A DNA stretch of 64,000 nt, taken from the IMG/VR virus record IMGVR_UViG_3300050120_000361, positions 124,001 through 188,000 of that record. The stretch is one strand, 5' to 3'. Position 1 is the stretch's first letter, and each line of letters begins with the position of its first letter. The translations under genes and the position numbers were made by a program. Origin of the DNA: a virus. Under the pieces are notes generated by a model. The model made no database searches. It was not told the origin of the DNA and saw only the letters and a list, made by a program, of their open reading frames with translations. Below, piece after piece: positions 31,655 through 62,033 of the stretch.

Positions 31655-31682
31655 ACTTAAGGGATTTGACATATCTTTCATT

Positions 31683-31708
31683 TGGTTTCAGTCTCTTGCC
31701 TGAAACCA
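31683..31708 (+). terminator. Hairpin after the tail tube gene
   Basis: A 9-bp perfect stem (TGGTTTCAG with CTGAAACCA) around an 8-base loop lies 28 bases after the tube stop and 17 bases before the next start. No T-run follows, so it may stabilise the message or attenuate rather than terminate. Confidence 0.5.
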
Positions 31709-31725
31709 TTAAACATATACGGTAA

Positions 31726-33402
31726 ATGGCAAAATTCGGCTACGACGACCACAACTCGTCATTGAATACAAACACTCTGAAGCTCTCGAACGTCTACACG
31801 AACTGGGGATACCTTTTCCTGAACGCGGATGAGGAGTGCCGGGCCCTGATGCAGGAGCTCGTTGACGAGGAGCACGGCGGCTTCGTGCTCGTCAAGCCCC
31901 AGGACTTCGCCCTGCACATGCTAGACCTGTTCTTCAACCTGTCGCCTGAGATACAGCCGCTTTTCGACGGCTACGACGCCATGCAGATAGCAGGAATGGA
32001 GCAGGTCTACAGGACCAATCCAAAGTCTATGGTAATGCGCCTGGCCGATGACCTAAGGGAGAACGAGTTCAACGGTTCGGGTCAGCGGTTCGCGGCTAAC
32101 ATTTACCCAATGACGCCTGAGGGCTTCTCTCAATGGCCGTCCGACTGGGCTTTTCCAATATACGTTGACGACAACATGCCAGGCGAAAATGCCGTGCATA
32201 TCATAAACGAGGTGATGGAGTCCTCAGACCCTGAAGAGTACGAGGAGTACTACTGCTACGGCGGAGACTTTTTCTACAAGCGCAAGGACAGTCCTAAGTA
32301 CTGGATGGACGAGGACGACGAGGCAGACGTGTCATTCGATACAATCGAGGAGATGAAGCAGTACATCAACAACGGAGGGTGGGAGGGCACCCATGCGCCC
32401 GAACCGACCCCAGAGGTAGAGGAGGTTGCGAGCGACGTGGACGAGCTGCCGGAAGGTGAAAATGAAAGCATTTGGAGTGAAAAGCGTAAAGCATTTATTA
32501 AGATAGCCCGGAATGGAGAACCTGGAGTTTGGGATGACGATCTAAATGTTTTTGTATTGACCGAAGAGTCAAAAAATGATACTGAGCCTGTTACAGCGGG
32601 AATAGTTGACAAGGCCTCTGAGGCCCAGCCTGAAATAAACTGGTCCGACACAAAGACGGGGATTTCCGAAAAGGAGGAGTACAGCGCTCTTGTCAAGAAA
32701 TTGGCTTTCGCCCAGCACAAGCTCGCCAAAACCAAGAATTCCTACCGCAAGCCTACTCTTGGAGCGCCGCGGAAGGCCCCTGTGAAAATGGAGCAGTGGA
32801 AGAAGGACGCTTTGAAGCGCCTTGAAGGAGAGGTGTCCAAGGCGCTTAAGGCCATAGACCGCTTTAAGTTCAATCACGCCGGTTTGCGTCAGGTCATGAG
32901 ACAGCTAAACATACCAGCAGCCTCTTGGAACGGAAGCGGGATGGTCAAGGAATGGGGCAATTGGACACAAGGCTACAAAATAAATGATGGCGGATGGTCG
33001 CCTGAGAAGGTTGACCTTTACCAGATAGGCAAGGAAAAATTCCTGAACCTTATAAAGACGCTTGAGGCCAAGGGCTTTGAAATCGACGTTGTAAGCGAAC
33101 CGAGCAAGGCTATAAACGGAGACAGTGTGGCATACTTCACCATAGAGCAGTACCATACTGATGAGGATTTGAAGGGAAACACAAAATTGAATGAGGACGC
33201 GCCTGTAAGCCCTTGGGCTTTGGCGGTCGGTCCAGCAGTAGTGCTTTCTGTAGTGGTAGCCTCAGTGATAAGAGAGTACAAGAAAGGCAAGGCTAAGGCA
33301 GAGGCTGGAGGCGTTAAGATGGACGGGGCCACCCGCAAGAAGGTGCTAGTCAACGCGCTTCAAAAGGCGATACTCGAGGTGCAGAAGGCGCACAACTCAT
33401 AA
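31726..33402 (+). CDS. K-L-S-N-x-W family protein, member A
   Basis: A 558-residue member of a five-gene paralogous family. Residues 16-110 hold the shared N-terminal module (T-L-K-L-S-N-V-Y start; F-D-G-Y-D near residue 85). A low-complexity acidic region follows (about 165-300). A C-terminal domain (about 355-490) is shared with the next gene (G-G-W, then an aspartate-leucine-tyrosine segment, then L-x-x-x-G-F-E-I). A hydrophobic segment near 505-522 could cross a membrane. Bases 32451-32630 are visibly AT-richer than the rest. The function is unknown. A packaged or injected protein, or a tail accessory, is possible. Confidence 0.6.
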   Translation: MAKFGYDDHNSSLNTNTLKLSNVYTNWGYLFLNADEECRALMQELVDEEHGGFVLVKPQDFALHMLDLFFNLSPEIQPLFDGYDAMQIAGMEQVYRTNPKSMVMRLADDLRENEFNGSGQRFAANIYPMTPEGFSQWPSDWAFPIYVDDNMPGENAVHIINEVMESSDPEEYEEYYCYGGDFFYKRKDSPKYWMDEDDEADVSFDTIEEMKQYINNGGWEGTHAPEPTPEVEEVASDVDELPEGENESIWSEKRKAFIKIARNGEPGVWDDDLNVFVLTEESKNDTEPVTAGIVDKASEAQPEINWSDTKTGISEKEEYSALVKKLAFAQHKLAKTKNSYRKPTLGAPRKAPVKMEQWKKDALKRLEGEVSKALKAIDRFKFNHAGLRQVMRQLNIPAASWNGSGMVKEWGNWTQGYKINDGGWSPEKVDLYQIGKEKFLNLIKTLEAKGFEIDVVSEPSKAINGDSVAYFTIEQYHTDEDLKGNTKLNEDAPVSPWALAVGPAVVLSVVVASVIREYKKGKAKAEAGGVKMDGATRKKVLVNALQKAILEVQKAHNS

Positions 33403-33407
33403 GCATT

Positions 33408-34265
33408 ATGGAAAGACTCAAACTAAGTAATTTCTGGGAAGTATGGCCCGAGCTATGCGCCACAGAACCCAAGTTCAAGCCTTTTGAAATGCTCGCGAAC
33501 GTGTTCTCGACTTCGGACGGCAGGGCGATGCGGGCACAGCCGAAGGAGTGCACGGACTACCTGATGCGCATGTTCTCGAACTCGCAGCTTTTCAGGGGAA
33601 TGTTCGGCGGCTACACGGAGCGGGAGGCCGACACCATTGCCGCAATGGTCGCGGAGAACGGGGACGGCTTCAAAGCGCTTTCAGAAAGGCTCGCCAAAAC
33701 CTATGAGGCATGGACCGCGCTGGACGGGCCCAAGCGCACTACGGACGAGGACTTCAAGAAGTACCTGATACTGGTGAATGAAACCAATATGGCGCAGGAG
33801 GCTTTTGACAGGATTAACGCCAAGGCGACCAATGAAAAGCTTCGCAAGGACCACGTGTTCGCATCCAAGTGGCGAGCCGCAAGGGCCGAAATCAACAAGG
33901 CAGAACGCAAAACGCGCCAATTCATTCACAACACCCTGAACATCGTTAAAGGCGTAAGGTCATTAGGCCTGGAGGCATCCAAGTCGGAAACCACAGCCGT
34001 AAAGGGCTGGCACACAATTACCGACGGTTACTCTATATCCGAGGGCGATATAGAGCTGTACGGCGGCACGGGCGTGGAGAAGTATTCGGCTATACTGGCC
34101 TGGCTTAAGTCCAACGGATACGAGATAGAGTCGACTGAAAAGCCGTGGCGCTCAGGCAAGGGCATGCGCGCCAACATAAGAGTTAAGCCATGGCACGACG
34201 AGGACGCGCTGAAGGAGCGGCACAGGAAAACCGCGGAGAACATTGACAGATACATAAACGGTTAA
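33408..34265 (+). CDS. K-L-S-N-x-W family protein, member B
   Basis: A 285-residue paralogue starting 6 bases after member A. The N-terminal module covers about residues 3-100 (L-K-L-S-N-F-W; F-G-G-Y-T-E-R-E near 66-73). A helical linker rich in Lys and Ala follows. The C-terminal domain (about 195-270: G-W-H, D-I-E-L-Y, L-K-S-N-G-Y-E-I) matches the end of member A. B therefore looks like member A without the acidic middle and membrane-like segment. No catalytic residues were recognised. Confidence 0.6.
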   Translation: MERLKLSNFWEVWPELCATEPKFKPFEMLANVFSTSDGRAMRAQPKECTDYLMRMFSNSQLFRGMFGGYTEREADTIAAMVAENGDGFKALSERLAKTYEAWTALDGPKRTTDEDFKKYLILVNETNMAQEAFDRINAKATNEKLRKDHVFASKWRAARAEINKAERKTRQFIHNTLNIVKGVRSLGLEASKSETTAVKGWHTITDGYSISEGDIELYGGTGVEKYSAILAWLKSNGYEIESTEKPWRSGKGMRANIRVKPWHDEDALKERHRKTAENIDRYING

Positions 34266-34293
34266 GGAACACGATACAACCAAAAACACAACA

Positions 34294-35886
34294 ATGGCAT
34301 TCAAACTTACCAACATATGGCAGCAGTGGTCCCAGTTCTGGGCGGCAGCCGAAAAGGAGGCGCCCACAGACTTCGAGAGACTTTCCAATTATTGGCAGCC
34401 TGACGGCACATACATGACCGAGGAGCCTAAGGAGGCTGTTGAGGGCCTGCTAAAGCTGCTCGCCGCGAGCGGAAGGCTCATAAACGTATTTGACGGCTAC
34501 GACCAGAAGGAAAAGGGCGGAATACTCGGCGCCTGGGCTGTCGAGGCCAACAGGCCCAAATTCATTGACGCCATATGCAAGTCTTTCGCCGATTACGTCC
34601 ATATTAAGGGCAAGTCAATAGTAGACTACAGCCACGCTTTCGCCAACGGGTTCGCAGACGATTACGCGCAGTTCCCTGAGAACGTTACAGAAACCACAAC
34701 TGGAGCGGATGACGGGAAGCGGTGCTTCACCGTTACAGGTCTTCCAGGCCTGACCTTCGAATTCGAGCAGAATGGTGAGCTCATAACCATAGTAGATGAG
34801 GTCGGTGACGATTTGGGGGACGCCTACGACAATGAGCTATTCAACACGATAGCCGCCCTGCGCAGGGCGGTACACCCAGAGGACAATGATACGGGGAACC
34901 CTGAACTACTTAAGGAACTGAACGCAATACACGCGCAGCAGAAGCCGGTTCCGGTTCCGCCAAGCGCCGTGCCTGACAAGTCGTCATCGGCCGATAAGGT
35001 TGCTGACTACCTAGGAACGGCAATGGCCAAGCACAAGAACTGCTACTTCGCCAAAATGAGCAAAGGCGTTCCACTGCCGGAAAGTTCGAGAATACCGGAA
35101 AGGATGCTCAAATGGGCGCTGTCCTGCTCGCTCCCTGAAAAGGGGGTTGATGACTTCAAAAAGGCTCTTAAGGCTATGGCGATACCCGGACTGCGCGTCA
35201 GCAAGGGGCCTTCCCGCGGGAAGAACGCTCCGGCGTACTACGTTGTTCAGTGCCCGATTGAGGAGACCAAGGTTGAGGCGAAGACCGACGTGATACACCT
35301 GGCGTCATACTCTGAGGGTTGGAGCAGCCTCGGCGAACAGGACATTGAATACTTCATGGACATATGCAGCCAGTTCCTCGCCGCCCCGGACAAAACAACT
35401 TTCTGGGACAGCCTGCGCTTCCAGATAACCAAGCTATTGCCGGGCGACGCTGAGGACATTGACCAGGCAGACATTGGTGAACGCATGGCCACAGTGAAGA
35501 CCCTGCTCCAGTACCTCAAGAAGGACCTGGCCTGGGACAAGAAGAACACCCGCGAGTACAACTCCAGGGCCAAGGCGATAGCTGACGGCAGCAAGGCCAT
35601 ATCCAAAATATCCGATGATGACATAGAGTACTTGGGAGACGCCGACAGGCCGATACTTGTCAAGATACTTACCGACTACCACCTCGGAAACCTCATAGGC
35701 AAGGTGAAGCCGAAGTCGAAAATAGTGATAGAGGCCCGCGACTACACCGAAACCGACAACTCAAACAACAGGTACACGTTCACCAAGACATACGTTGACG
35801 GCTACGTGTCAATAGACGGTTCGGAGACTGAATTCGAAAGAATACAGATTGGCTCGAGCGGCTTCGACCACTTCCCCGAGAGCTGA
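34294..35886 (+). CDS. K-L-T-N-x-W family protein, member C
   Basis: A 530-residue paralogue. The N-terminal module (residues 3-105) starts K-L-T-N-I-W-Q-Q-W and has F-D-G-Y-D-Q-K-E near 68-75. The middle contains a beta-type stretch (T-G-L-P-G-L-T-F-E-F) and a segment near 280-330 (L-K-A-M-A-I-P-G-L-R-V then A-Y-Y-V-V-Q) that is a weak match to the C-terminal domain of A and B. The rest is charged and helical. It stops with TGA. Function unknown; location between tube and tape measure genes suggests a tail or packaged role. Confidence 0.6.
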   Translation: MAFKLTNIWQQWSQFWAAAEKEAPTDFERLSNYWQPDGTYMTEEPKEAVEGLLKLLAASGRLINVFDGYDQKEKGGILGAWAVEANRPKFIDAICKSFADYVHIKGKSIVDYSHAFANGFADDYAQFPENVTETTTGADDGKRCFTVTGLPGLTFEFEQNGELITIVDEVGDDLGDAYDNELFNTIAALRRAVHPEDNDTGNPELLKELNAIHAQQKPVPVPPSAVPDKSSSADKVADYLGTAMAKHKNCYFAKMSKGVPLPESSRIPERMLKWALSCSLPEKGVDDFKKALKAMAIPGLRVSKGPSRGKNAPAYYVVQCPIEETKVEAKTDVIHLASYSEGWSSLGEQDIEYFMDICSQFLAAPDKTTFWDSLRFQITKLLPGDAEDIDQADIGERMATVKTLLQYLKKDLAWDKKNTREYNSRAKAIADGSKAISKISDDDIEYLGDADRPILVKILTDYHLGNLIGKVKPKSKIVIEARDYTETDNSNNRYTFTKTYVDGYVSIDGSETEFERIQIGSSGFDHFPES

Positions 35887-35947
35887 TAGCGGAAAAAACG
35901 CAAAAGACAAAAACGCATAGATAGTTCATTACGCCGAACAGACGACA

Positions 35948-36358
35948 ATGGCGATAAGGATAAGAGACAAGACACAAAAACCCGTTGATGCTGGGGTTAG
36001 CAGAAAAGACGACCGCAATGGCCAGTCGCAACCCACCAAAGAAACCAACAAGGACGCACCTATTCCGGATGTCCGTAGCTTCAGAGAACAGGCCATACTG
36101 GTCATTAACACACTCGAGTCGGAGGGCATAGACCTGTACGACAAAGCAAGAACTCCAGGAATGTATTTGAAAAGGAGGGGGACCGCAATGGTGCCTGACC
36201 AACTAATTCAGAAAATTCTATCTGGGAACGACGACCAAGCATCGACTTTGAACGCGAAGCAGCCAACATCAACGGGAAACAATAGCGAGGCAAAGGCCGG
36301 CGGAGAGCAACTCCCGCCCGGCCTTGTCGCATTTCTGACAAAGAACAAGAAACCATAA
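35948..36358 (+). CDS. Hypothetical protein, polar and low-complexity
   Basis: A 136-residue hydrophilic protein with a basic N-terminus, a mixed middle (V-R-S-F-R-E-Q-A-I-L-V-I-N-T-L-E-S) that looks helical, and an Asn/Gly/Thr-rich C-terminus. No family was recognised. It is placed just before the gp26-like chaperone gene and its stop overlaps a TAAATA motif. Confidence 0.5.
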   Translation: MAIRIRDKTQKPVDAGVSRKDDRNGQSQPTKETNKDAPIPDVRSFREQAILVINTLESEGIDLYDKARTPGMYLKRRGTAMVPDQLIQKILSGNDDQASTLNAKQPTSTGNNSEAKAGGEQLPPGLVAFLTKNKKP

Positions 36359-36361
36359 ATA
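36354..36361 (+). promoter_or_regulatory. Candidate late promoter (CATAAATA)
   Basis: Third exact copy of this octamer in an intergenic setting, about 10 bases before the start at 36372. It overlaps the stop codon of the preceding gene, so part of the match is forced by TAA. Confidence 0.3.
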
Positions 36362-36371
36362 ACAGCATAAC

Positions 36372-37373
36372 ATGTCAACAGAGAAAGACGAAATCAAGAA
36401 GCAAAAACTGGCCGAGCTCGAACAGCTTGAAAGCACCGCCAAAGGAACCGAACCGGAAGCAGCGCCAATCGAAACCGAGACTCAGCCCGAGGACGAGGAC
36501 GACAACATAGTGCGCATGGACGCTCCAAAAATGATTGACGGCTACCGCATACTCGCAAGGCCGAACATGCCATTCGGCGGCGCGCTGTACCCGCCGTCTT
36601 GGACCTTCGCCTACAAGTGCCCAATTTCCAAGCAGATCGCGAACTTCTCCACGCTCAACGAGCAGGACCAGCCCGCGATAGTGGCTGCCATCGAGGAACT
36701 GGTTAAGGCCTGCTTCGTGATACTGGACGAGAACAACGGACAGACAATAGACACTGGCGAACTGAACGACGGCGACAGGCTGTTCTTCTTCCTGCTCCTG
36801 CGCGAATTTTACCTGCACGACAAGCCCATCACGTACACCACAATAAGCCAGAACTGGCAGGAGCCCGTACAGGTAGAGCTGCTCGCCTCCAGGCTGAAGT
36901 ACAAGACACTCAGCGCCGGCCTTCTCGCGTGCTTTGACGGCCGCATATTCACGATACCGGTTAACGAAGAGTCCGAGCCGATAGTGTTCCGCGTCCCTAC
37001 TTTCAAGGCTTCTGGCAAGGTGTTCCGGCACATAGTCAAGGTGTACCGAGACAGCCAGAACGCGGACGAGACAGAGAGCAAGAAGATGCTTGACGACGAG
37101 TCGTTCAACAAGCAGTTCCTGCTGGTGGCGCCGTTCCTTTTCGTTACCGGCAACGAGACAATAGACGCCCTCAAGACCAAGTTCAAGAAGATACAGTACA
37201 ATGAGGACCTACTCAACAGCTACCTCACGGTGATAAACAAGCTCAAACTGGACAACATGGAGCGCATCGCCTACACGTACAAGGGCTCTGAGGAGGAGAC
37301 CCTGATGCGATTTCCCGGAGGATGGAAGAACATGTTTATCGATAACCAGGCTTTCGGAGGAATATTCGACTAA
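36372..37373 (+). CDS. gp26-like baseplate hub/tail assembly chaperone
   Basis: A 333-residue protein with a charged N-terminus (about 1-50). A body follows that resembles the T4 gp26 family as I know it: a Y-P-P-S-W segment after a proline/glycine-rich turn (about 77-81), L-N-E-Q-D-Q, a helix with I-E-E-L-V-K-A-C, and D-R-L-F-F-F-L-L-L-R-E (about 137-147). gp26-type proteins act in hub assembly, at the place where other phages encode the tail chaperone G just before the tape measure gene. Its stop (TAA at 37371) is followed immediately by a second coding frame with no clean start, as described in the next entry. Confidence 0.65.
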   Translation: MSTEKDEIKKQKLAELEQLESTAKGTEPEAAPIETETQPEDEDDNIVRMDAPKMIDGYRILARPNMPFGGALYPPSWTFAYKCPISKQIANFSTLNEQDQPAIVAAIEELVKACFVILDENNGQTIDTGELNDGDRLFFFLLLREFYLHDKPITYTTISQNWQEPVQVELLASRLKYKTLSAGLLACFDGRIFTIPVNEESEPIVFRVPTFKASGKVFRHIVKVYRDSQNADETESKKMLDDESFNKQFLLVAPFLFVTGNETIDALKTKFKKIQYNEDLLNSYLTVINKLKLDNMERIAYTYKGSEEETLMRFPGGWKNMFIDNQAFGGIFD

Positions 37374-37725
37374 GATATGGGGGCCGAAGGAGGAAAAGAA
37401 GACAGCATTCCCTACCTGGTCTGAACTCTACTCGGCGAGCAAAATCGACTGGAACAGCTACTACGAGTCGGCTATAATACTGTCCGTAAAGAGCCACAAC
37501 AGCTTTGAGCAGATAGAGAACCTGGAGTTCTTTAAGTTCAATTTGCTGATGAAGTACCTGAATATATACATAGAGAACGAGAACAAACAGCAACAAAGCC
37601 CCGAAGACGCCGAAAACAAGAAGGACGAACTAATGCAGCAGTCCGCCAAGCACATGGCGGAAGCCAAGAAGAATATGCCGAAAGCGCCTAAGATGCCGAC
37701 AATAAAAGCACCAAAACTGAAGTAA
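37372..37725 (+). CDS. gp51/T-like reading frame without a clean start (frameshift suspected)
   Basis: The + frame starting TGG GGG CCG at 37378 is open from before the preceding stop to TAA at 37723-37725 and reads as real protein: W-G-P-K-E-E-K-K, then W-S-E-L-Y-S-A-S-K-I-D-W, and a Lys/Ala/Met/Pro-rich tail. Only the last 60 residues follow an in-frame ATG (37543). An ATG at 37377 lies three bases after the upstream stop but enters the wrong frame. Removing one G of the G5 run at 37379-37383 would restore it. Options are a +1 programmed shift fusing it to the gp26-like protein, a start at ATA 37375, or a one-base insertion (real or assembly error). Confidence 0.6.
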   Translation, partial: KIWGPKEEKKTAFPTWSELYSASKIDWNSYYESAIILSVKSHNSFEQIENLEFFKFNLLMKYLNIYIENENKQQQSPEDAENKKDELMQQSAKHMAEAKKNMPKAPKMPTIKAPKLK

Positions 37726-37735
37726 AAACACGGAA

Positions 37736-39565
37736 ATGAGCAGACTGAACAACCTCAACGAAGCGGTAATAGACACCACCAAATTCACAGGAAATGGCGG
37801 CGGTGACTTGAACATCAGACTCGCTAAGAAAGGCGCTGGAAAGTCCCTGCTTGACGACATTGAGGACGAGGACGCCGGCGCATTTGCGCCCCTTTTGCCT
37901 AACGACATTGTAGACACAAAGACAATAGCGCAGAGGCTCGCTGAAAAGAATGAGCAGTTGGCAGCCCAAACAGTTAAGGACACGAACAGGGCCGCCGAGC
38001 TTAAGGCGCTGATGCAGCTCAGGCAGAAGAAGCGCCCCGAGATAAGGCACCAGAAAACCGAGAAACAGGACCTGAACGCACAACTGCTCGACAGAACCGA
38101 TGCCGAGGAAATGCAGCTGCAGCTGCAGAACAGGCAGTTGATACAGGACTACACCGAGGCAACCGGCAACCGGCTCCCTGAAGACACTGAAATGGTGGAG
38201 ACCGTGGAGCAGATTGAGGAGGCGCTTGACGAGATACCGACAGGCGACAAGGAGGTCACGCTCGCGGACTTCGACATCGTTCCGACACCAATCCGCAAGG
38301 ACAAGACGGGCTACACAAAGACCCTCGTAACCATAAAGAAGGGCTCCGTTCCACAGGAGATGAGCGCGCTCGCCACTGAGGTTAAGAAGCTGTCCAAGGG
38401 CGTGATAAGGCACCGCATAATGGACATGCGCACCATAGCGAACACCAACAAGACGCAGCTGCGCGGGTCTGATTTAAAGCTCGGCCTCGTGTCAATAAAC
38501 TTCAAGCCCGACGGCGAGAGCCGCGTCAACAAGGGCACCAGGTTCATAGTGTCCGTTCCGGAGGACTTCCAATCCTCACGGGACGTTGTCGTGTACATAC
38601 AGGAAAGCCGCGACAAGACGATACTGGTCCTGAAAGGGAACACTTTCTCCAACTGGCCGACAATGCAGGAATTCCTTGCCGAGGCCATAGCGAATTACTA
38701 CCAGTACGGGTTCGCTTCAACCAAGACCATGCTCAAATCCAACGGCATAAGCAATCCGCTCCTTGCCGTGGTTAAGTCGGTTTCATCCTCTGGGAGATAC
38801 ACGGTCGAGCCGAAGACGGACGCCGAAGGGCGCATCGAGCAGCTAACCATAGAGAGCAAGGGCACTGACAACCAGTGGCTTCGCGTCGTGGTGCTCGAGG
38901 GGCAGCTTGCTGCGACATACAAGGTCAAGTGCCGTTCCGAGATTGACACCAATTGGTCAGTGGACATAAACAACCCAAAAGGGCATCCTCTCACCATACT
39001 GGACCTGAACGGGGACAAGTTCATAGGCATACTTGACAAGCTTTACGCGAAACAGGACTGGGGAATGGACTCTGGTGGAAGCAGGGAATACTACATGCTT
39101 GCCAAGCTGACCTACCGTGCGCTGAGGGACGCGTTCGTCAGGATGTGGACTATAGTGGATGAGCCGGAGACCAACGCAATAGGCCTGGTCATTGGCGGCA
39201 CGCTTTCGCAGAAGGACACCGCAAAGGACATACCAGGCTCGTACGCCGCGGAGGGCATTATAGGCAAGACCAGCCATTTCGACTACTTCATACTGACCTA
39301 CCTTGCGGTGCAGGAACTGGGCGGCGACAAGCGCAATCCGCAGGAGTACATCACCACGGACGAGTACCATGAAAAGTACAACATAGCCAACAGGGGCAGG
39401 TACCAGGACAGACCCGCTACCATTCTCAAGAAAGAGGGCGAAAAGCGCAACTACCACGCAAGGGTGTACAAGTTCCAGCTCGAATACGAAATAGCCGGCA
39501 GCAAGCACAAGCTTGTCAACAGCTCATTGGATGCCATACTCGAAGAGAGCGGCCTGCTCAAATAA
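37736..39565 (+). CDS. Unknown protein upstream of the tape measure
   Basis: A 609-residue protein. An L-N-E-A site lies at residues 7-10 (after N-N). The first 170 residues are charged and helical with long Glu/Gln stretches, and the rest is mixed alpha/beta with several tyrosine-rich strands. No known family was recognised. In T4 the equivalent position holds hub genes 27-28, but no sequence support for those was seen. It is flanked 10 bases upstream by the gp51/T-like frame. A tail or hub role is inferred from context. Confidence 0.55.
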   Translation: MSRLNNLNEAVIDTTKFTGNGGGDLNIRLAKKGAGKSLLDDIEDEDAGAFAPLLPNDIVDTKTIAQRLAEKNEQLAAQTVKDTNRAAELKALMQLRQKKRPEIRHQKTEKQDLNAQLLDRTDAEEMQLQLQNRQLIQDYTEATGNRLPEDTEMVETVEQIEEALDEIPTGDKEVTLADFDIVPTPIRKDKTGYTKTLVTIKKGSVPQEMSALATEVKKLSKGVIRHRIMDMRTIANTNKTQLRGSDLKLGLVSINFKPDGESRVNKGTRFIVSVPEDFQSSRDVVVYIQESRDKTILVLKGNTFSNWPTMQEFLAEAIANYYQYGFASTKTMLKSNGISNPLLAVVKSVSSSGRYTVEPKTDAEGRIEQLTIESKGTDNQWLRVVVLEGQLAATYKVKCRSEIDTNWSVDINNPKGHPLTILDLNGDKFIGILDKLYAKQDWGMDSGGSREYYMLAKLTYRALRDAFVRMWTIVDEPETNAIGLVIGGTLSQKDTAKDIPGSYAAEGIIGKTSHFDYFILTYLAVQELGGDKRNPQEYITTDEYHEKYNIANRGRYQDRPATILKKEGEKRNYHARVYKFQLEYEIAGSKHKLVNSSLDAILEESGLLK

Positions 39566-39575
39566 ACAAAATCAG

Positions 39576-39893
39576 ATGAAGATAGAGAACATATCCCAGG
39601 ACCGTCAGACCAAACTGATGATGGCCATTGAGGCTAACGCATCAAGCGTTAGGCGCAGAAACGTTTCCTATACGATATACTGCTATTCTGATTTCATGGG
39701 AGTAATAACCCTTACCGTGTCCGGCAAAAGAGGAAGCGTGACAAAGGCAATTGCTGTGAACTTTGACTTGCTGCTTGAGCGTTGGACTGTTTTCTCAGAT
39801 GGCAAGAAGTACACGCTAGACCAGTTGTCCGAACTTCAGGCAATTATGAAGAGCATTGTGGCCAAGGAAACTACGAACGCGGGCAAGATATAG
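39576..39893 (+). CDS. Small unknown protein
   Basis: A 105-residue protein starting at ATG 39576. An in-frame ATG at 39513 also exists but would overlap the end of the previous gene by 53 bases, so the later start is preferred. The protein has a basic N-terminal half, a V-I-T-L-T-V-S-G-K-R beta strand and a helical end. Its codons are AT-richer than those of its neighbours. No family is recognised. It stops with TAG. Confidence 0.5.
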   Translation: MKIENISQDRQTKLMMAIEANASSVRRRNVSYTIYCYSDFMGVITLTVSGKRGSVTKAIAVNFDLLLERWTVFSDGKKYTLDQLSELQAIMKSIVAKETTNAGKI

Positions 39894-39914
39894 CGGGTAC
39901 GCCCCGCGTTTTGC
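39893..39914 (+). terminator. Weak terminator-like hairpin
   Basis: A 5-bp GC stem (GCGGG with CCCGC) and a 6-base loop, followed by G then TTTT. It starts at the stop codon of the preceding gene. The stem is short, so its strength is uncertain. Confidence 0.4.
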
Positions 39915-40088
39915 CCCAAAAACGGCCAGTTTAATTATGGAGAAAAAACGTTAACTCAGTAGAAGAATATATAGCTGTGTGGAAATAAACGAACCAAATC
40001 TGGTTAATTTTCCCACAAACCAATCGAAAATGAGGTATTTGGGTCCTACGGTCAGCATAGAAGAAAATTTCAATCAAATCGGCACTTT
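39915..40088 (+). other. AT-rich leader of the tape measure gene
   Basis: A 174-base non-coding gap before the tape measure start at 40089. It is AT-rich with several A-runs. No Shine-Dalgarno sequence, clear promoter hexamer or strong hairpin was seen. It is the second longest gap in the window. Confidence 0.5.
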
Positions 40089-43000
40089 ATGAAATCAGCC
40101 GCCCTTGAGCAACCAACGCAAGTAGACATGGGCTTCTCGTCCATGGTTAACATGCTTGCTCAAATGGGCAAGGAGGAGAGGCAGCAGAGCGGAGTGCTTG
40201 GTTCAATACTTGAACGCGCCACGGAAATCAAGGTTTCCGTAACGGATGCGTTCAAGTCTTTCTCATTCGACAGGACTCAAAAATTCAACGTTTACCAAAA
40301 CATTCAGACAGCCCAGCACAAGACAAACAACTGGCTTGAGGCGCTCTTCATAGAATTGCTTTCGATACGCAAGCACGTCGTTGGCATAGAGTCCGGACAG
40401 GAGGGCATGAAGCCCAAGGCAGAAAAGATGCAGAGCGGCAGACCCCTCGACTACACCGAAACCTTCAAGAAATCAAACGACCATCTCTCGGCAATATCCG
40501 CAAACACCAAGTCAGCGCTCAAATTCCTTGAGGGAATAGCCAATGGCAAAAAGGTCGAGGCTCCCAAGGCCGGACACAAGGTTGGGGAGGAAGAGGATGA
40601 GGGCTTCCACGACACCAAAAAGAAGGTGAAGGGTTTCTTCAATGTGGCCGAGTTCGCCAAATCAATTGCGATACTGAACGCGAACATAACCAAGAAAATG
40701 ATAAGCGGGCTCGGAGCGTTCGAAAAGGCCTACGCGAGCCTTCTGGAAATGCCTGAAAAGAAGATGAAGACATTCACTGATGGGACTACCAAGTTCGGTT
40801 CAGTAATGGAGAAACTCTCCAAACAGATAAAGCCCGCCGCGATAACAATAGGCGTGCTTTCCGCTGCGTTTGTAGCTTTGAGCCTGTCTGTGACCAATCC
40901 GATATTCATTGTCGGTATGGCAACAATAGGCCTGTTCGTCACGCTCGTAAAAAGGTACGGCGGCGACAAGGACGCGGACAGGGGAATGCTGAAATTCGCT
41001 GAAGGCATAGGGATACTAACGCTTGCAATGGGCCTGATGCGCTTTGTGCAATGGGAGTCCGGTGCCAAGATGCTGGTATTCATTGCTGGACTCGGTCTGG
41101 CTATGAAGCTCTACATGAAACCCGCGGAGACTTCGGGAATGTTCAAGTTCGCGATGGGTATAGGCATCCTTACGGTTGCCATGGCCCTGATGAATTTCGT
41201 GGACTGGTCCTCAGGGGCCAAGATGCTGATATTCATTGGCGGTCTCGGACTGGCTTTGCGGACCTTCAGCGGTTCCGGCGCGAACGGCGGGCTCGGCAAG
41301 CAGTTGCTAGCTTTCGGTGAGGGGCTCGGCATAATGGTTCTCGCGCTCGTTGCTTTCAACTACATAAACTTCACTTCGGTCCTGAAGATGATAACCTTCG
41401 TGGCGGGGCTCGGACTCGCCCTCAAGCTGTTCGGAGAAGACAAGGGCGGCCTAAAATCCCCACTGCTCTCGTTTGCGTTCGGCATTGGATTGATGGTTCT
41501 TGGGCTGCTCGCGTTCGCTGAGATACCGCTCACGGCCATAATGAAGATGCTTACGTTCATTGGCCTATTGGGCCTTGAGCTCAAGCTTTTCTCCAACGGG
41601 GACGGCAAGTCGCCGATGCTTCAATTCGCAATGGGTTTGGGCATAATGGTTCTCGCCATGTATGCCATGAATGAGCTTCCGTGGGAGGCTCTCGGAAAGA
41701 CTTTGCTGTTCCTGGGCGGTCTCGGACTGGTTATGAAGCTGTTCGAAGGCGGCTCGGGCGCCGATTTCCTTATGATGGCAGGCGGCATACTGGTAATAGC
41801 CGGAGCCCTTTGGGTCTTCAAGAAGATAGGCTGGACCATGGCGGACGCCCTGATACTTGGCGGCACGATAACCATACTCGGAGTGATAGTGGCCGCTGCA
41901 GGAGCCCTAGCTGAGGTGATAGTCCCTGGAGCCATTTCAATGGTGGCTATGGGTGTTTCACTCGCGCTGTTCGCGCTCAGCCTGTGGGCAATATCCAAGC
42001 TTACGATAGACTACGAGTCTATAGCCAAATTCGGGGTGGCCGCTCTCGGCCTTACCACGATGATGGCCCTGATAGCTCCGCTAGCCGCTTTGGGCGCGAT
42101 AGGCGCTGTCCTGTTCCTGCCGATAGCCGCCGCAGCCCTTCTGGGTGCCGGCTCACTTATGCTAATATCCAAAGTACGGAATTATGATACGAAAAACTTT
42201 GCAGACGCGGTATTCGACCTCACATGGGGCTTTACCAAAATTGCTCCATTCGCTGCTCTTGGTGTCATTGGGGCTACTCTTTTTCTACCAATTGCAGCAA
42301 GCGCTCTCCTTGGAGCGGCAGCGCTCAAAGCAATATCGCTACTCGCTTTCGACCAAAAGGCAATCACAGCCTACGGGGTTGGCGTCAACTCACTGATCGG
42401 AGCCCTGGACAACCTGGGCATAATACAGGTCACTCGGACCGCGGCCAAGTCGGTGCTGCTGCTGCCAATATTCGCCGCGGCGACATTGGGAGCGCTCGCG
42501 CTTAAGGCAATGTCTGAAATGGACCTGAATGAGGGAAAGGTGAACCTGGCGGCCAAGCTAATAGACAGCTTCTCATCATCGATGATTTACACCATACTCA
42601 GGAACAAGGACAGGTTCGAGAAGGCGATGCCGGGAATAAACGCATTGGCCAAGCTTATGGGAATATCCTCGGACGTCGCCAAGGCGATAGGCATGATGGC
42701 CAACATGGAGTTCGTTGAGCATGGGGTCAGGAACGGGAAGCTGTACATCAAGTCCGTGCGCAAGCTGAACCCCGCGGACATGAAGCGGGTGGGGGAGAAC
42801 CTGGCCGTAATGCTCCAATGCCTTATCGAGCCTTTGACCATTCTCGGCTCTGACACGGCAACGTTCAACATAGGCGGCAGGAAGATAGCCAACCCGTTCA
42901 AGAACCCAAGCGCGCTAAAGGGGATAGACATGCTGTCCAGGGTTGGCGGTGCTTTCAAGCCATTAATGGACTCAATATCCGAGTACGCGAACCTGCCGCT

Positions 43001-43703
43001 CGCGTCAGACCCTAAGAAGCTTCAGCTGTTCACACAAAGTCTGATGTCGGTCATAAATACCATTATATGGGCGATAGACCGCGCGGCTACGATTAAGCAG
43101 GACATAGCTTCCAAGTCCATAACAACAATATCCAGGTTCGTAAGCTCAATGAAGGACCTTAACGTGGACAGGTTCAACGGCATAAACTCTGCGGTTGAGA
43201 AGTTCCTTGGCAACCTTGCGGATGACGTCAAGTGGAAGAAGATAGCCAGCAACATGAACATGCTCCAGCAGCAGTTCAAGGGTATAGCGTCCTCGATAAA
43301 CTCCATAGACATGGGCAAGGCCACAATGTTCGAGAAGAACGTGCGCAACCTGCTGGACAAGAACGCAGGCGAGAACCTCACCCTTGTGGTTCAGGAGCTC
43401 AAGGAGTTGTTCGGACTTGTTTCGGGGCAGTACAAGGCCCAGGCCGATGCTGCCCAGGCGCCAGCCAGAGACGACAAGAAGGACAATTCAATATCCTTCG
43501 GCTTCAACAACGGCCCACAGGACAAGAAGGCCGCTAAGGCCGTAGGGAAGCCCACTGAGCACGAGGAGATGACAGAGCTTATGAACCAAATAGGGATGGC
43601 GCTCGCGGCCATAGTTCAGCAGCTGACCGGCGTCAACGACAAACTCGCTGGCAAGTTGAAGGTTGTGACCACAACTGGAACGGCCAACAGCTTTTTACCG
43701 TAA
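40089..43703 (+). CDS. Tail tape measure protein with hydrophobic repeats
   Basis: A 1204-residue protein. A helical N-terminal part (about 1-260) leads to a long hydrophobic region (about 255-760). In that region a unit of about 40-45 residues recurs at least five times (F-A-x-G-I/L-G-I-x-x-L/V-A-M-A-L-M, then K-M-L-x-F-I-x-G-L-G-L). A second pair of repeats near 660-760 contains I-A-P-x-A-A-L-G-x-I-G-A. The C-terminal part is helical and polar and includes a Lys/Asp-rich stretch. Tape measures set tail length and often carry membrane-inserting regions that help DNA cross the host membrane. The position after the chaperone genes supports this. No Shine-Dalgarno sequence precedes the start. 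Confidence 0.8.
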   Translation: MKSAALEQPTQVDMGFSSMVNMLAQMGKEERQQSGVLGSILERATEIKVSVTDAFKSFSFDRTQKFNVYQNIQTAQHKTNNWLEALFIELLSIRKHVVGIESGQEGMKPKAEKMQSGRPLDYTETFKKSNDHLSAISANTKSALKFLEGIANGKKVEAPKAGHKVGEEEDEGFHDTKKKVKGFFNVAEFAKSIAILNANITKKMISGLGAFEKAYASLLEMPEKKMKTFTDGTTKFGSVMEKLSKQIKPAAITIGVLSAAFVALSLSVTNPIFIVGMATIGLFVTLVKRYGGDKDADRGMLKFAEGIGILTLAMGLMRFVQWESGAKMLVFIAGLGLAMKLYMKPAETSGMFKFAMGIGILTVAMALMNFVDWSSGAKMLIFIGGLGLALRTFSGSGANGGLGKQLLAFGEGLGIMVLALVAFNYINFTSVLKMITFVAGLGLALKLFGEDKGGLKSPLLSFAFGIGLMVLGLLAFAEIPLTAIMKMLTFIGLLGLELKLFSNGDGKSPMLQFAMGLGIMVLAMYAMNELPWEALGKTLLFLGGLGLVMKLFEGGSGADFLMMAGGILVIAGALWVFKKIGWTMADALILGGTITILGVIVAAAGALAEVIVPGAISMVAMGVSLALFALSLWAISKLTIDYESIAKFGVAALGLTTMMALIAPLAALGAIGAVLFLPIAAAALLGAGSLMLISKVRNYDTKNFADAVFDLTWGFTKIAPFAALGVIGATLFLPIAASALLGAAALKAISLLAFDQKAITAYGVGVNSLIGALDNLGIIQVTRTAAKSVLLLPIFAAATLGALALKAMSEMDLNEGKVNLAAKLIDSFSSSMIYTILRNKDRFEKAMPGINALAKLMGISSDVAKAIGMMANMEFVEHGVRNGKLYIKSVRKLNPADMKRVGENLAVMLQCLIEPLTILGSDTATFNIGGRKIANPFKNPSALKGIDMLSRVGGAFKPLMDSISEYANLPLASDPKKLQLFTQSLMSVINTIIWAIDRAATIKQDIASKSITTISRFVSSMKDLNVDRFNGINSAVEKFLGNLADDVKWKKIASNMNMLQQQFKGIASSINSIDMGKATMFEKNVRNLLDKNAGENLTLVVQELKELFGLVSGQYKAQADAAQAPARDDKKDNSISFGFNNGPQDKKAAKAVGKPTEHEEMTELMNQIGMALAAIVQQLTGVNDKLAGKLKVVTTTGTANSFLP

Positions 43704-43958
43704 CACTGTCGCGGGGTAAATACAATCAAGGGTATCGCAAAATGCCAATATATCAAGTTAAAATGAACAAAGCCATGTAAGCATGACGTACCTTGCCACA
43801 AGCGAATAGCAGTCAGTTGTAGCTACCTGTTGCATATCGTATTTGGGCATAAGTTCGAGGAATAGAGACGGCCTGTAAGCCATTGAACCTGGGAACGAGA
43901 AGTCATCATTGGAGTGCGTGCATTACTGCAGTTATTAACAATTTAACCCATTAACCAA
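43704..43958 (+). other. 255-base non-coding gap before the 497-residue gene
   Basis: The longest gap in the window. It holds a GGTAAATAC motif near 43715, several scattered short inverted repeats and an A/T-rich end leading to the start at 43959. No Shine-Dalgarno sequence, tRNA cloverleaf or terminator was found. It may be a long leader for an abundantly made protein. Possible promoter and structured leader are inferences. Confidence 0.5.
43715..43722 (+). promoter_or_regulatory. Candidate late promoter (GGTAAATA)
   Basis: A TAAATA motif stands 12 bases after the tape measure stop, not overlapping a stop codon. If used, it would give a 230-base leader for the gene at 43959. Confidence 0.3.
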
Positions 43959-45452
43959 ATGGCAATTACAAGAAAAGACTACGTCCTCAAAGTGACGGAG
44001 CAAATGGCCGAGAACGCTAAGGCGGTTCTTTCCGGACACGGACTGAAATCGCAGTTCATCAACCTTATTAGCAAGCGCCCGGACATCATCGCCAAATTGG
44101 CCGTGTTGGCCTGGTCATCAAAGACCGCGTCTAAAGGCGGCAAGGCTCTTCAGAAGAAGAACAACTTCAAAATCACGGCTTACGCCAACTTCGCGAACTT
44201 CAACTTCGGCGCGCGCCAGGACGTTGAAAAATTCATGGAGAAACTCACGCCGGCCGACCAGGCTTCATTCAGCAATGATGAGAACATTTTGACCATTCTC
44301 GCAATGGGCGACACCCCTGTGGGCATTGATTTGGAGGCGGACATCGTTAACGGCAAATCCGTTGCGCTGCCTTTCGCCAAGTCTGTTATGAAACAGTACA
44401 AATTCGGTACTGGGGCTTACATCGTGGTTATGTTCGGCGACTCTTGGCTCCAGCCAAAAGAGGAGAAAACGGCGAAATCAAAAGCAAAGGTTAACAGCCG
44501 CCTACAGGCCCGCCGTTCACCCGCCAAGGTTCGCGCCGAACTCGTTAGCAAGGCGAACGCCAAAAAGGCCGATTTGAAGAGCGATGCCATCAAATTGAAG
44601 AACGCCGCCGCCAAGCACGAAGGCGCCCTGCAGCAGTTCAACAACCTCGCGGCAACTGTTGGCGCTCCTGAAGGCGCCTCAGCAAAAGAGGCATTGGCAG
44701 CAATCAAGGCCTACAACACGACAAACAAGAAATTGATTGCCGGTCTGAGCTCTGACAATCTTCGCCAATACAACAAGGCTGCACGCCTCTACATGGGCGG
44801 CGAGAAAGCGAAAGCCAATTCGATACTTGCGAAAATCGGCATTCCCGAGCTTACTGACCTGGTTCGCGGCGGAAACAACGTAAGCACAGACAAAATCGTT
44901 GCTGCCCGCAAGAAGGCATTGACCGCCAAAATCAAGGAAATTAGCGCCGCAAATGAGGAGCTGCTTGTTAAGGTTGCTGAGTCAACCAACAGCAAGTACA
45001 AGGCGGACACCAACTTCAAGATCCGTGCCAATGTGGCAAAGATTAAGGAGCTTCGCGCGCGCATTGCATCTTTCAGCGAATTGACAACAATCGGCGCCGT
45101 TAAGAACAAGGCTTCATTGCTCTCTAAGGCGAACGCGCTTATTGCTGCTAATTTGAAGGCCGGACAGTCTGTGCAGGCAGCGCTGCAGAACGCGCTTTCT
45201 AAACTTCCGGTTGACGACGACACTAAGGAGCAGATACGCCAGCAGGTCATTGAGGGCGTTGCCCAGCAAGTGCCCATGCAGTACGCGGTCCAGCAGGCGA
45301 TACAGAACGTTGACCTACAGGCCGACGATGAGGTGGAAGCGGCCGAGGAGGAAATGGAAGATGATTTGGGATTGGATGACGATCTTGAACTGTCTGACGA
45401 CACCTCACTGGCAGGCAGCAAGTCTATTCAGGACATTCTTGCAAACCTCTAA
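43959..45452 (+). CDS. Ala/Lys-rich abundant virion or head-core protein candidate
   Basis: A 497-residue protein with a globular N-terminal part (about 1-160) and a long helical Ala/Lys/Asn-rich middle (about 160-440). It ends in a very acidic tail with many Asp and Glu (about 453-480) and a final S-I-Q-D-I-L-A-N-L. Codon use differs sharply from neighbours: isoleucine is nearly all ATT/ATC and arginine mainly CGC/CGT, while other genes favour ATA and AGG, which suggests very high expression. Shape and expression would fit a scaffold, internal core or DNA-binding virion protein. It has no family match I can name, and it is not an obvious capsid protein. A strong terminator follows. Confidence 0.6.
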   Translation: MAITRKDYVLKVTEQMAENAKAVLSGHGLKSQFINLISKRPDIIAKLAVLAWSSKTASKGGKALQKKNNFKITAYANFANFNFGARQDVEKFMEKLTPADQASFSNDENILTILAMGDTPVGIDLEADIVNGKSVALPFAKSVMKQYKFGTGAYIVVMFGDSWLQPKEEKTAKSKAKVNSRLQARRSPAKVRAELVSKANAKKADLKSDAIKLKNAAAKHEGALQQFNNLAATVGAPEGASAKEALAAIKAYNTTNKKLIAGLSSDNLRQYNKAARLYMGGEKAKANSILAKIGIPELTDLVRGGNNVSTDKIVAARKKALTAKIKEISAANEELLVKVAESTNSKYKADTNFKIRANVAKIKELRARIASFSELTTIGAVKNKASLLSKANALIAANLKAGQSVQAALQNALSKLPVDDDTKEQIRQQVIEGVAQQVPMQYAVQQAIQNVDLQADDEVEAAEEEMEDDLGLDDDLELSDDTSLAGSKSIQDILANL

Positions 45453-45496
45453 CGGCATTAAATTGGTTTAGTTTAATTAGTTCCAGCATTCAGAAT

Positions 45497-45522
45497 GCCC
45501 CGTCGCCGAAAGGTGTCGGGGC
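45497..45522 (+). terminator. Intrinsic terminator with GAAA tetraloop
   Basis: An 11-position stem (GCCCCG/CGGGGC outer, one T-T mismatch, inner pairs including one G-T) closed by a GAAA loop, followed by TTTGC. It is also enclosed by a wider CCAGC/GCTGG pair. Placed 45 bases after the stop of the highly biased 497-residue gene. Confidence 0.8.
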
Positions 45523-45547
45523 TTTGCTGGTAAAAAGCGGTTTCTAA

Positions 45548-46399
45548 ATGGCGATAAAACTTAGCAATGTATGGGAAAACCTCGACTCGTTAATAATGTG
45601 GATGGTCGACGATGCGCAGAAGGCCCGGTACAAAAAGATATATGATACCAAGACCGGTAAGCTGCTCATAAGCGAGATAGACTTTCTGAAGACAGTTTGT
45701 CAGGACTTCGTTGATGTTGTAACCTTCAGGTTCCTGTTCGACTACCCAACGAACGTTAAGAAGGGAATACTTGAAGCCATAAGGTCTGACATGGACCTTG
45801 TGGTTAACAAGCTAATGGTTGACCTGTACGGCCAGCTGAACGTGCACGACGTTAAGTTCCAGGGCGCCGATGAGGTTGAGGACATTGAAAGGTACCGTGA
45901 GCTTGACGGGCGCATAAGCGCCAACAGTTCCGCGCAGGAGGACATGCGGTGGATTAGGGATTGGGTCTTCGCCAGCATGGACGAAACCGACAAGCCCGAC
46001 ATAAACGCGCTTGAGGCCATTTACCGCAAATGGCTAAGAGTGACCGGGTACAGCAACGACTACGCCATGGTATCGCCCGGCGAAATGCTGCTTGAGCTCG
46101 AGCAGGCCAATGAGCCCATAGTGTCGCTTCAGGACCAGGTAGAGCGCGCCGTCAACAAGAGCCAGGAAAAGTACAAGTGGCTTGAGGAGCAGATACCGCA
46201 GCTTAACGGATACACTGACGCGGAGGCCCTGTGGCTCATGCAGCTAAAGGGTGAAATGTCCCAGGCCAACGAGGCCGAGCGGCGCGAACTTGACAGGATA
46301 TGGGGCGCTTTCCTCGAAGATACGGACTACGTAAATACAGCACAGAACCTGAGCATTGACGAGCTAATCGCCGTGCTCTCAACCAACGAAAAACAATGA
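45548..46399 (+). CDS. K-L-S-N-x-W family protein, member D
   Basis: A 283-residue paralogue of the genes at 31726-35886, about 10 kb away from them. The N-terminal module begins at residue 3 (I-K-L-S-N-V-W-E-N-L) and continues to about residue 95; its F-D-Y-P-T segment (near 60-64) stands for the F-D-G-Y-D of the other members. The remainder is charged and helical and does not match the C-terminal domains of A or B. It overlaps the next start by 4 bases (ATGA), which points to coupled translation. Confidence 0.6.
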   Translation: MAIKLSNVWENLDSLIMWMVDDAQKARYKKIYDTKTGKLLISEIDFLKTVCQDFVDVVTFRFLFDYPTNVKKGILEAIRSDMDLVVNKLMVDLYGQLNVHDVKFQGADEVEDIERYRELDGRISANSSAQEDMRWIRDWVFASMDETDKPDINALEAIYRKWLRVTGYSNDYAMVSPGEMLLELEQANEPIVSLQDQVERAVNKSQEKYKWLEEQIPQLNGYTDAEALWLMQLKGEMSQANEAERRELDRIWGAFLEDTDYVNTAQNLSIDELIAVLSTNEKQ

Positions 46400-47064
46400 G
46401 CTTACAGCCAGGAACATCATCCCTTACGGCGCCGCAGCCGCAGGTTGCCCAATTGGAGCTAACCTTCGCGGGCCCGCTCGTAAAGGACTCGTACGTTTCC
46501 ACCAAGAACGACCTCCCAAACCTTCCAGTGGCCACGAGCTATGAGCAGAAGATGGTATGGGTGAAGGCCGATAAGTCATGGTACTACATATCGAGCGGCG
46601 ACGGTTCGCTGCTATCGCACTGGACGCTTCTCGTTGGCAGGATGACCATAGAGGCTTACGACCCCGCAAACTCCCAGGGGTATGCGGCGGGCGACACCGT
46701 ATACCAGAACGGAATAATCTACAAGGCCGTACAGGACGCGCCGCAGGGCATTGCCCCGCAGAACGGCGCATACTGGCTGATAATAGCGGGCGACGGCGTG
46801 GCGTACCGCTTCGTGTTCCAGAACGTGTCGTCCTTCGCCGTGGTTACGCCCGTAAAGAACCCGCTGTTCGAGACTATAATAGGCGACATACAGATGTCCG
46901 GTTCAGACTTCGTGATAGGCGACGACGGAATGGTGGAGATACTCAACCAGGAGATAGTGCAGGCATTCGTGCAGAAGGACGACTCTGAAACCGGAAAGTA
47001 CAACGTGTACTTCGAGACTAACGGAACGCCATTCGCTATGAGCGGCGCCATCAATGTGAAATAA
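46396..47064 (+). CDS. Virion protein with chitin/cellulose-binding-like module
   Basis: A 222-residue protein. Residues 86-130 follow the carbohydrate-binding module 5/12 pattern: Y-D-P, Y-A-A-G-D-T-V-Y-Q-N-G, I-Y-K-A, a proline/glycine turn and W near the end. Such modules bind polysaccharide and are often found on phage fibres. The N-terminal part (about 15-80) is beta-rich with W-Y-Y-I-S-S-G-D-G, similar to fibre N-terminal units. It may help attachment to a polysaccharide-coated host or mucus. Start overlaps the previous stop (ATGA). Confidence 0.6.
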   Translation: MSLQPGTSSLTAPQPQVAQLELTFAGPLVKDSYVSTKNDLPNLPVATSYEQKMVWVKADKSWYYISSGDGSLLSHWTLLVGRMTIEAYDPANSQGYAAGDTVYQNGIIYKAVQDAPQGIAPQNGAYWLIIAGDGVAYRFVFQNVSSFAVVTPVKNPLFETIIGDIQMSGSDFVIGDDGMVEILNQEIVQAFVQKDDSETGKYNVYFETNGTPFAMSGAINVK

Positions 47065-47139
47065 TACGGCACGTCCTAACATTGCCGCTGTTTCAGGATA
47101 TAGATAACATCGATAACACACCAATAACAGATAGATGAC

Positions 47140-47850
47140 ATGGGCGTAAAAGCACAACCACCACAGACGGGCACTCTCAAACTCTCCAATATATGGCAGA
47201 ACCTCAGGCAGCTGATAACAGCGGCCAAGAAGACCGATGTCAAGATGCACTTAAAGCTGCTTGACGGCGCCACGTTCGATAACATGAAGCGTCCCGAGTA
47301 CCAGGCATTCGTGCTGAATACCGCGATTGACCTTTTCATGCTCAGGCCGGGACTGTTCGGATACACGCTGAACGAGATTGAGATTGTCACCGCTGGCGTA
47401 AGGGCCAACAGGCCCAAAACAGTTGCCGACATGAAGCGAAGGCTCGACGGCCAGTACAACGACAATGGGGTGTTCTTCGGCGAGCAGCCGAAGTTCACGT
47501 GGAGGCGCGGCCCAAGGATAGCCGACCAGTCAGCGAGCTTTCCGCCCGAGCGCAGGCCGTACAACTGCTACATAGAGAGCCTGCCCGGATACCACTTCAC
47601 CAAGGACGGCTTCATAGGCGGGTTGTTAAACCACGGCTGGGGCTTCACGAACGTGGGGAACGAGTGGTACAGCTCCATAGACGCATCGCCAAAGAGCATA
47701 TCGTTCGCCAGGATGTTCGAGTTCGGTGACGACAAGGAAGCCCGGAAGAACTTTGAAAAGCTCTTCGTGAGCATAATATACGGCTGGAAGTTCCCAGAGT
47801 TCAGGGAACAGATAATGGCCAAAAAATCACTAATATCATTGAAACTGTAA
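47140..47850 (+). CDS. K-L-S-N-x-W family protein, member E
   Basis: A 236-residue paralogue. The N-terminal module begins at about residue 12 (T-L-K-L-S-N-I-W-Q-N-L) and includes L-F-G-Y-T-L-N-E near residues 72-79 and R-A-N-R-P-K. The C-terminal half has its own globular pattern (G-F-I-G-G-L-L-N-H-G-W-G-F-T-N-V), different from A, B and C. The gene lies between two fibre-like genes, so the family is not confined to one cluster. Confidence 0.6.
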   Translation: MGVKAQPPQTGTLKLSNIWQNLRQLITAAKKTDVKMHLKLLDGATFDNMKRPEYQAFVLNTAIDLFMLRPGLFGYTLNEIEIVTAGVRANRPKTVADMKRRLDGQYNDNGVFFGEQPKFTWRRGPRIADQSASFPPERRPYNCYIESLPGYHFTKDGFIGGLLNHGWGFTNVGNEWYSSIDASPKSISFARMFEFGDDKEARKNFEKLFVSIIYGWKFPEFREQIMAKKSLISLKL

Positions 47851-47854
47851 GGAT

Positions 47855-61563: not shown

Positions 61564-61600
61564 TCAATTATTTTAAGGAAACAAACAAAAACATACGGAA

Positions 61601-62017
61601 ATGAACAAGAAGAACATCAGCGAGCTGGAGGTAATGGTCCAGCTGGGCATACCAACCGGCCCGACAAACCCGACAACCCCGAAGGCGAACCAGATAGACG
61701 GCGTGAACCGCGCCTACCTGTTCTACAACAAGACCCTGGGAGGTCTGCAGATTTGGAACGGCACGGCATGGGTTAGCTTCGCGGGAACCGTAACTTCGGG
61801 AAACACGGTGAAGGCCGTGAAGTCAACAACCGCTGCCGACGGAACCGCAACGGCGTTCGCGTTCCCGGACAACATACTCGCGGGTACCGAGGAGATTTAT
61901 GTCGCGGGCCTATTGAAGGACCGCACAACGGACTACGCGGTTGCCACCAACACAGTGACATTCACTGTGGCTCCGACAAACGGCCAAAAAGTGCTCGGGA
62001 GCTACCAGAAGGCGTAA
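61601..62017 (+). CDS. Small fibre-tip-like protein
   Basis: A 138-residue protein. The N-terminal half has R-A-Y-L-F-Y-N-K and I-W-N-G-T-A-W-V (about residues 37-58), a fibre segment. The C-terminal half (about 70-138) has G-T-E-E-I-Y-V-A-G-L-L and T-D-Y, which matches the last 70 residues of the 3040-residue fibre (G-T-E-E-V-F-V-N-G-L-L and T-D-Y). The same tip module is therefore present twice. It may be a fibre tip, chaperone or decoy of that fibre. Confidence 0.65.
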   Translation: MNKKNISELEVMVQLGIPTGPTNPTTPKANQIDGVNRAYLFYNKTLGGLQIWNGTAWVSFAGTVTSGNTVKAVKSTTAADGTATAFAFPDNILAGTEEIYVAGLLKDRTTDYAVATNTVTFTVAPTNGQKVLGSYQKA

Positions 62018-62033
62018 TCACAAAATATAGCTG

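Follow-up and report, generated by a model that had tools for sequence, protein, structure and literature searches.

Accessory proteins of a PAU-like jumbo phage, encoded among late structural genes, have a predicted helical module in common

We have identified a family of phage proteins that, as judged by profile comparison, have in common a module of ~105 residues, with mostly unrelated C-terminal parts behind it. The genes are present or absent at several slots between neighbouring genes whose order is otherwise conserved in related phages. The module domain is apparently new, and the family gives the impression, from its sequences and gene positions, of a movable set of optional proteins, virion-associated or made late, and not of a standard tail part.

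Results

The phage and the five genes of the window

The window analysed here is a stretch of 64,000 nucleotides, positions 124001-188000 of IMGVR_UViG_3300050120_000361, a 208.5 kb IMG/VR virus record (label G000). The phage is a PAU-like jumbo phage. Its tail sheath (window gene 26948) has ~31% identity to those of Sphingomonas phage PAU and the Tenacibaculum phages PTm1/pT24, and window gene 31067, which matches the gene immediately downstream of the sheath in the same phages (38% identity to PAU), reads as the tail tube. Window gene 49942 is a DNA polymerase, and the portal, head maturation protease and capsid protein are encoded downstream of the window in the same record.

Five window genes, which we call A to E, had been grouped in a sequence-only reading by a common N-terminal module, and all five are present on the plus strand. 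Member A (31726..33402; 558 aa) comprises a short leader, the module at residues ~16-125 (31771..32100), an acidic middle, a domain common with B at residues ~311-500 (32656..33225) and a transmembrane helix at residues ~497-515. This predicted helix is single, strong and near the C-terminus (window 33214-33270), and was not seen in the other members. Member B (33408..34265; 285 aa) consists of the module (residues 1-105) and the A/B domain (33738..34262), and member C (34294..35886; 530 aa) of the module (residues 1-108) and a C-terminal part of its own. Member D (45548..46399; 283 aa) likewise has the module and its own C-terminal part and overlaps the next gene by 4 bp, while member E (47140..47850; 236 aa) has a short leader, the module at residues ~10-118 and a short C-terminal part of its own. 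A, B and C are co-directional and tightly packed, with gaps of 5 and 28 bp, and their G+C is usual for the window, so that by this measure they are not a recent import. Stable stem-loops lacking a T-run lie directly before A (31655-31725, z=-2.1) and D (45453-45547, z=-3.0); none was found before E, and promoter matches were no commoner than in shuffles.

The C-terminal domain claimed for A and B was recovered as a match of 25% identity over 175 aa (E about 1e-9); by sequence comparison, A and B are tandem copies alike in both domains. The C-termini of C, D and E gave no significant match among themselves or to A/B, in agreement with the earlier assignment of separate C-termini to these three.

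The module defines one family

With each member as a phmmer/blastp query against all ORFs of the window, the top ranks went to the rest of the family, although several of the pairwise E-values were weak. A profile of the five N-terminal sequences placed only A-E above noise in the 208.5 kb record. Leave-one-out profiles against a background of 6,393 ORFs recovered every member (E=3e-4 for A, 5e-10 for B, 3e-10 for C, 1e-8 for D and 2e-6 for E), and none of 1000 shuffled versions of each module scored as high as the real one. Some details of the earlier description needed adjustment. The module, ~105 residues long, begins at residue 1 in B and C, but at ~16 in A and ~10-12 in E; and the aromatic motif holds as F-x-G-Y in A-C but is one residue shorter, F-x-Y, in D and E. 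The isoelectric point of the module ranges from 4.4 to 9.7 across members, being acidic in A, B, C, D and H (see below). With so variable a charge, the module does not readily suggest a tag for DNA-associated packaging, and this speaks against a simple DNA-bound route.

A sixth member is present in the record. Member H (G000:75220-76332, minus strand; 371 aa) lies outside the window beside the terminase, was found with a seven-row profile, and was matched at E=3.6e-6 by a profile built without H and G. Its module starts at residue ~68, behind a Cys-rich stretch with CxxC pairs; such an internal position shows that the module is not tied to the N-terminus, as a short signal there would be. The order at this locus is terminase, a 94-aa ORF, then H, and a topoisomerase gene is near. 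A Vsr-type mismatch endonuclease gene adjoins H (L121:413-874, minus strand, near 75 kb of the record); one in-frame stop splits it, and its N-terminal half matches PF03852 at 1.2e-25.

Two more members were found in the nearest kin, IMGVR_UViG_3300002026_000017 (83.6 kb; label G014). F (314 aa) is a clear member, with E=1.9e-6 against the five-member profile. The adjoining G (255 aa) had a leave-one-out E of 0.55 and probably belongs to the family, given its place beside F and its F-x-Y motif. Both sit between homologues of head-closure and DNA-end-protector genes. All members but H, seven of the eight, are encoded within head or tail structural gene clusters; H comes directly after the terminase region. 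Scans of IMG/VR and GTDB genomes gave no further members or kin beyond the contigs already used. One profile match, in LR756500 (E=0.02), was dropped, since its ORF looks like that of a clamp-loader protein and the eight-member profile no longer gave the match.

Family genes occupy slots that are empty or differently filled in kin

Six kin contigs, whose tube proteins are 68-74% identical, were compared at slot 1, and one of them (G014) also at slots 2-4. Slot 1 (31655..35947), after the tail-tube gene, holds A-B-C in the window and is empty, or holds a remnant or an HNH gene, in the kin. In four contigs (L103, L104, L105 and L106) 0-25 bp separate the tube gene from the homologue of window gene 35948, which comes next. 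In L097 there is a 535-bp gap; the Cys-rich reading frame in it (L097:11745-12277) is broken, contains repeated Cys-pair (CxxC-like) segments and looks like the decayed remains of a mobile gene. In G014 (locus L108) the slot holds an HNH endonuclease (match 4.6e-57) and a 100-aa ORF. L103-L106 and L097 are colinear with the window yet lack A-B-C. The annotation tables of phages PAU, pT24 and MA9V-2 likewise list no gene between the tube-position gene and the next gene of ~300 aa, which was equated with window gene 36372 by position and size. Because A-B-C are missing from five kin contigs and, by annotation, from these outgroups, the polarity of gain and loss is firm at slot 1 only.

Slot 2 (45453..46395) holds D in the window; in G014 the flanking genes (homologues of 43959 and 46396) are 39 bp apart. 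Slot 3 (47065..47854) holds E, and the flanking genes in G014 (homologues of 46396 and 47855) meet or overlap. At slot 4 (61564..62033) the situation is reversed: the window has an unrelated 138-aa gene, and G014 has F and G between the homologues of 61033 and 62034. The 138-aa gene (window 61601-62017) gave weak PHROGs matches only, one of which is with a virion structural family. When 37 consecutive window genes were compared with G014, 30 had a homologue there, and the seven that did not are A-E, 51514 and 61601; five given genes would all fall among seven of 37 by chance with p=4.8e-5. As is expected of accessory late-operon genes, the family is present in one phage and absent from a close relative at a conserved junction. 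Its absence or replacement at these junctions in kin indicates accessory genes between conserved late genes and not core tail parts.

Free-standing HNH endonucleases were observed between structural genes at L132:1010-1645, L132:8885-9829, L108:10655-11608 and L110:8755-9570. In this phage and its nearest kin these sites are beside the portal and capsid genes and after the tube gene, and the clade seems rich in such endonucleases.

Predicted structure and searches for relatives

The module of C was modelled with AlphaFold2 from an eight-row joint alignment, giving a single model for the family. It is a compact all-helical bundle of about five to seven helices (pLDDT 86.9, pTM 0.74), and the prediction shows the module as one compact domain without a detectable known relative. 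Foldseek with this model returned nothing credible in the PDB (best E 2.1) or BFVD (best E 4.2). The lack of a match is compatible with a new fold for the predicted domain, but it is no proof of one, as small helical domains are hard to match. The full-length model of B was poor (pLDDT 49; best Foldseek E in the PDB 0.67) and allows no conclusion on the folds of the C-terminal parts.

Searches of A-H against Pfam, PHROGs, NCBIfam and PADLOC gave nothing convincing and no recognisable activity in any C-terminal part, and no nuclease match was obtained for A-H in Pfam or PHROGs. Searching 50,697 phage records by tblastn with A-F and H gave no credible relative, the sequence profile had no match in the PDB, and in profile comparison none of 33 core protein families of the phage clade was similar to the module. 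The phiKZ inner-body family PF12699 matched none of A-E at E<=1 and none of F, G and H at E<=0.5. A homologue of the prohead protease is encoded by the phage. Its presumed cleavage motif, [LI]xE|[SAG], occurred 7 times against 6.3 expected, with no consistent position at the module/cargo boundary; as the motif was assumed from T4 and from LFE|S of the capsid protein, this is a moderate test of cleavage only.

Discussion

The suggestion of a common module with different cargo gained from the confident fold of the module and from the larger family, and two of its proposed models, a T4-style targeting sequence and the phiKZ inner-body paralogues, fit less well. The T4 internal proteins IPI-IPIII are several non-essential proteins per phage, variable between relatives, with a common N-terminal part and otherwise unrelated bodies; their logic is a common targeting part with diverse anti-defence bodies (PMC3012670; PMC12373910). 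The present family resembles them in having a common part on otherwise unrelated bodies and in varying between relatives. In T4, however, only a short signal sequence is common and the protein is proteolysed in the prohead, whereas the module here is predicted to be a folded domain of ~105 residues that can sit internally, as in H, and has no conserved protease site at its boundary; in its cleaved form the T4 model is not supported. Giant phages also vary the number of paralogous head proteins, as in the SPN3US paralogue families A and B (PMC5694885). The likeness to these and to the phiKZ inner-body proteins is in being multi-copy jumbo-phage paralogues whose number differs between relatives, but no PF12699 match was found in any of the eight members, which speaks against the inner-body model, and our family is scattered over several intergenic slots. 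With morons, late-operon accessory genes and free-standing HNH endonucleases it has in common a position between conserved late genes, in slots that are empty or differently filled in relatives; unlike these, it reuses one domain family with several C-termini in place of one-off genes, and it lacks a nuclease match.

We tentatively favour the reading that A-E and H are accessory, non-core proteins encoded among late structural genes, in which the module docks exchangeable payloads to a common, most likely virion or prohead, partner. On this view every module would bind the same partner, and the exchangeable payloads would be the C-terminal parts. A virion or prohead component is the likeliest partner, given the position of members in co-directional, tightly packed structural gene clusters. 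The payloads may travel in or on the particle and do their work during assembly or early in infection, host defences being one possible target. The genes may have spread by tandem duplication and by recombination into slots where free-standing HNH endonucleases insert as well. A more far-reaching version, possible but doubtful, is that the module, in place of a short peptide that is cleaved, is a folded adaptor domain of a new kind and serves a lineage of PAU-like jumbo phages as a reusable plug attaching unrelated payloads to the particle, with the payload genes moving between slots of the structural clusters. The wide range of module pI, the lack of a boundary protease motif, the lack of recognisable activity in the cargo and the internal module of H are points against virion docking.

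Several of the same observations would suit proteins that stay in the cell, where the module would bind a common phage or host protein (bringing inhibitors, for example, to a site of replication or host takeover) and the late-gene slots would merely be used. The accessory distribution of the family agrees with this, as does the place of H beside the broken Vsr gene, near the topoisomerase and away from the tail cluster, and the membrane helix predicted in A could equally mean an intracellular role. The concentration of members in head and tail clusters, with H directly after the terminase region, counts against it, and we consider it rather unlikely. Docking onto the tail or baseplate, with the C-termini as surface decorations or adhesion parts, would explain why A-C come after the tail-tube gene and why D and E alternate with genes 46396, 47855 and 48885, which have a fibre-like look by reading of their sequence; 46396 also has a weak carbohydrate-binding match, under the cut-off. 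Tail docking had been named as equally possible, but as a general role it is weakened by H next to the terminase and F and G among the head-completion genes. Kin without A-E still have tail genes, and the C-termini of the family have no fibre-like or carbohydrate-binding match, which leaves this explanation quite unlikely.

Less probable again is that the genes are selfish or hitchhiking, as relatives or passengers of homing endonucleases whose module is a DNA-binding or targeting part. The HNH endonuclease in slot 1 of the nearest kin, the other HNH genes between structural genes in the clade and the Vsr gene adjoining H would fit such an origin; but no member has a nuclease or known DNA-binding domain, five modules are acidic, and a single kind of nuclease would hardly be expected to have unrelated C-termini. 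That the family consists of core tail chaperones or scaffold paralogues that merely evolve fast, as the site next to the tail-tube and tape-measure genes might suggest, is highly improbable: junctions of 0-25 bp in four kin contigs and of 39 bp at slot 2 are too short to contain a diverged copy, profile comparison showed none of the core families to be similar to the module, and the empty slots in kin largely refute this reading.

Conclusions

Should the module serve as a tag for loading or docking, as in the reading we favour, its sequence could be used to find accessory proteins, probably directed at the host, in an understudied group of giant phages, and chosen proteins could be attached to their particles by genetically encoded means. 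Even if it is not a tag, a new domain family and several late-gene insertion slots have been defined, which helps to tell optional from core virion genes.
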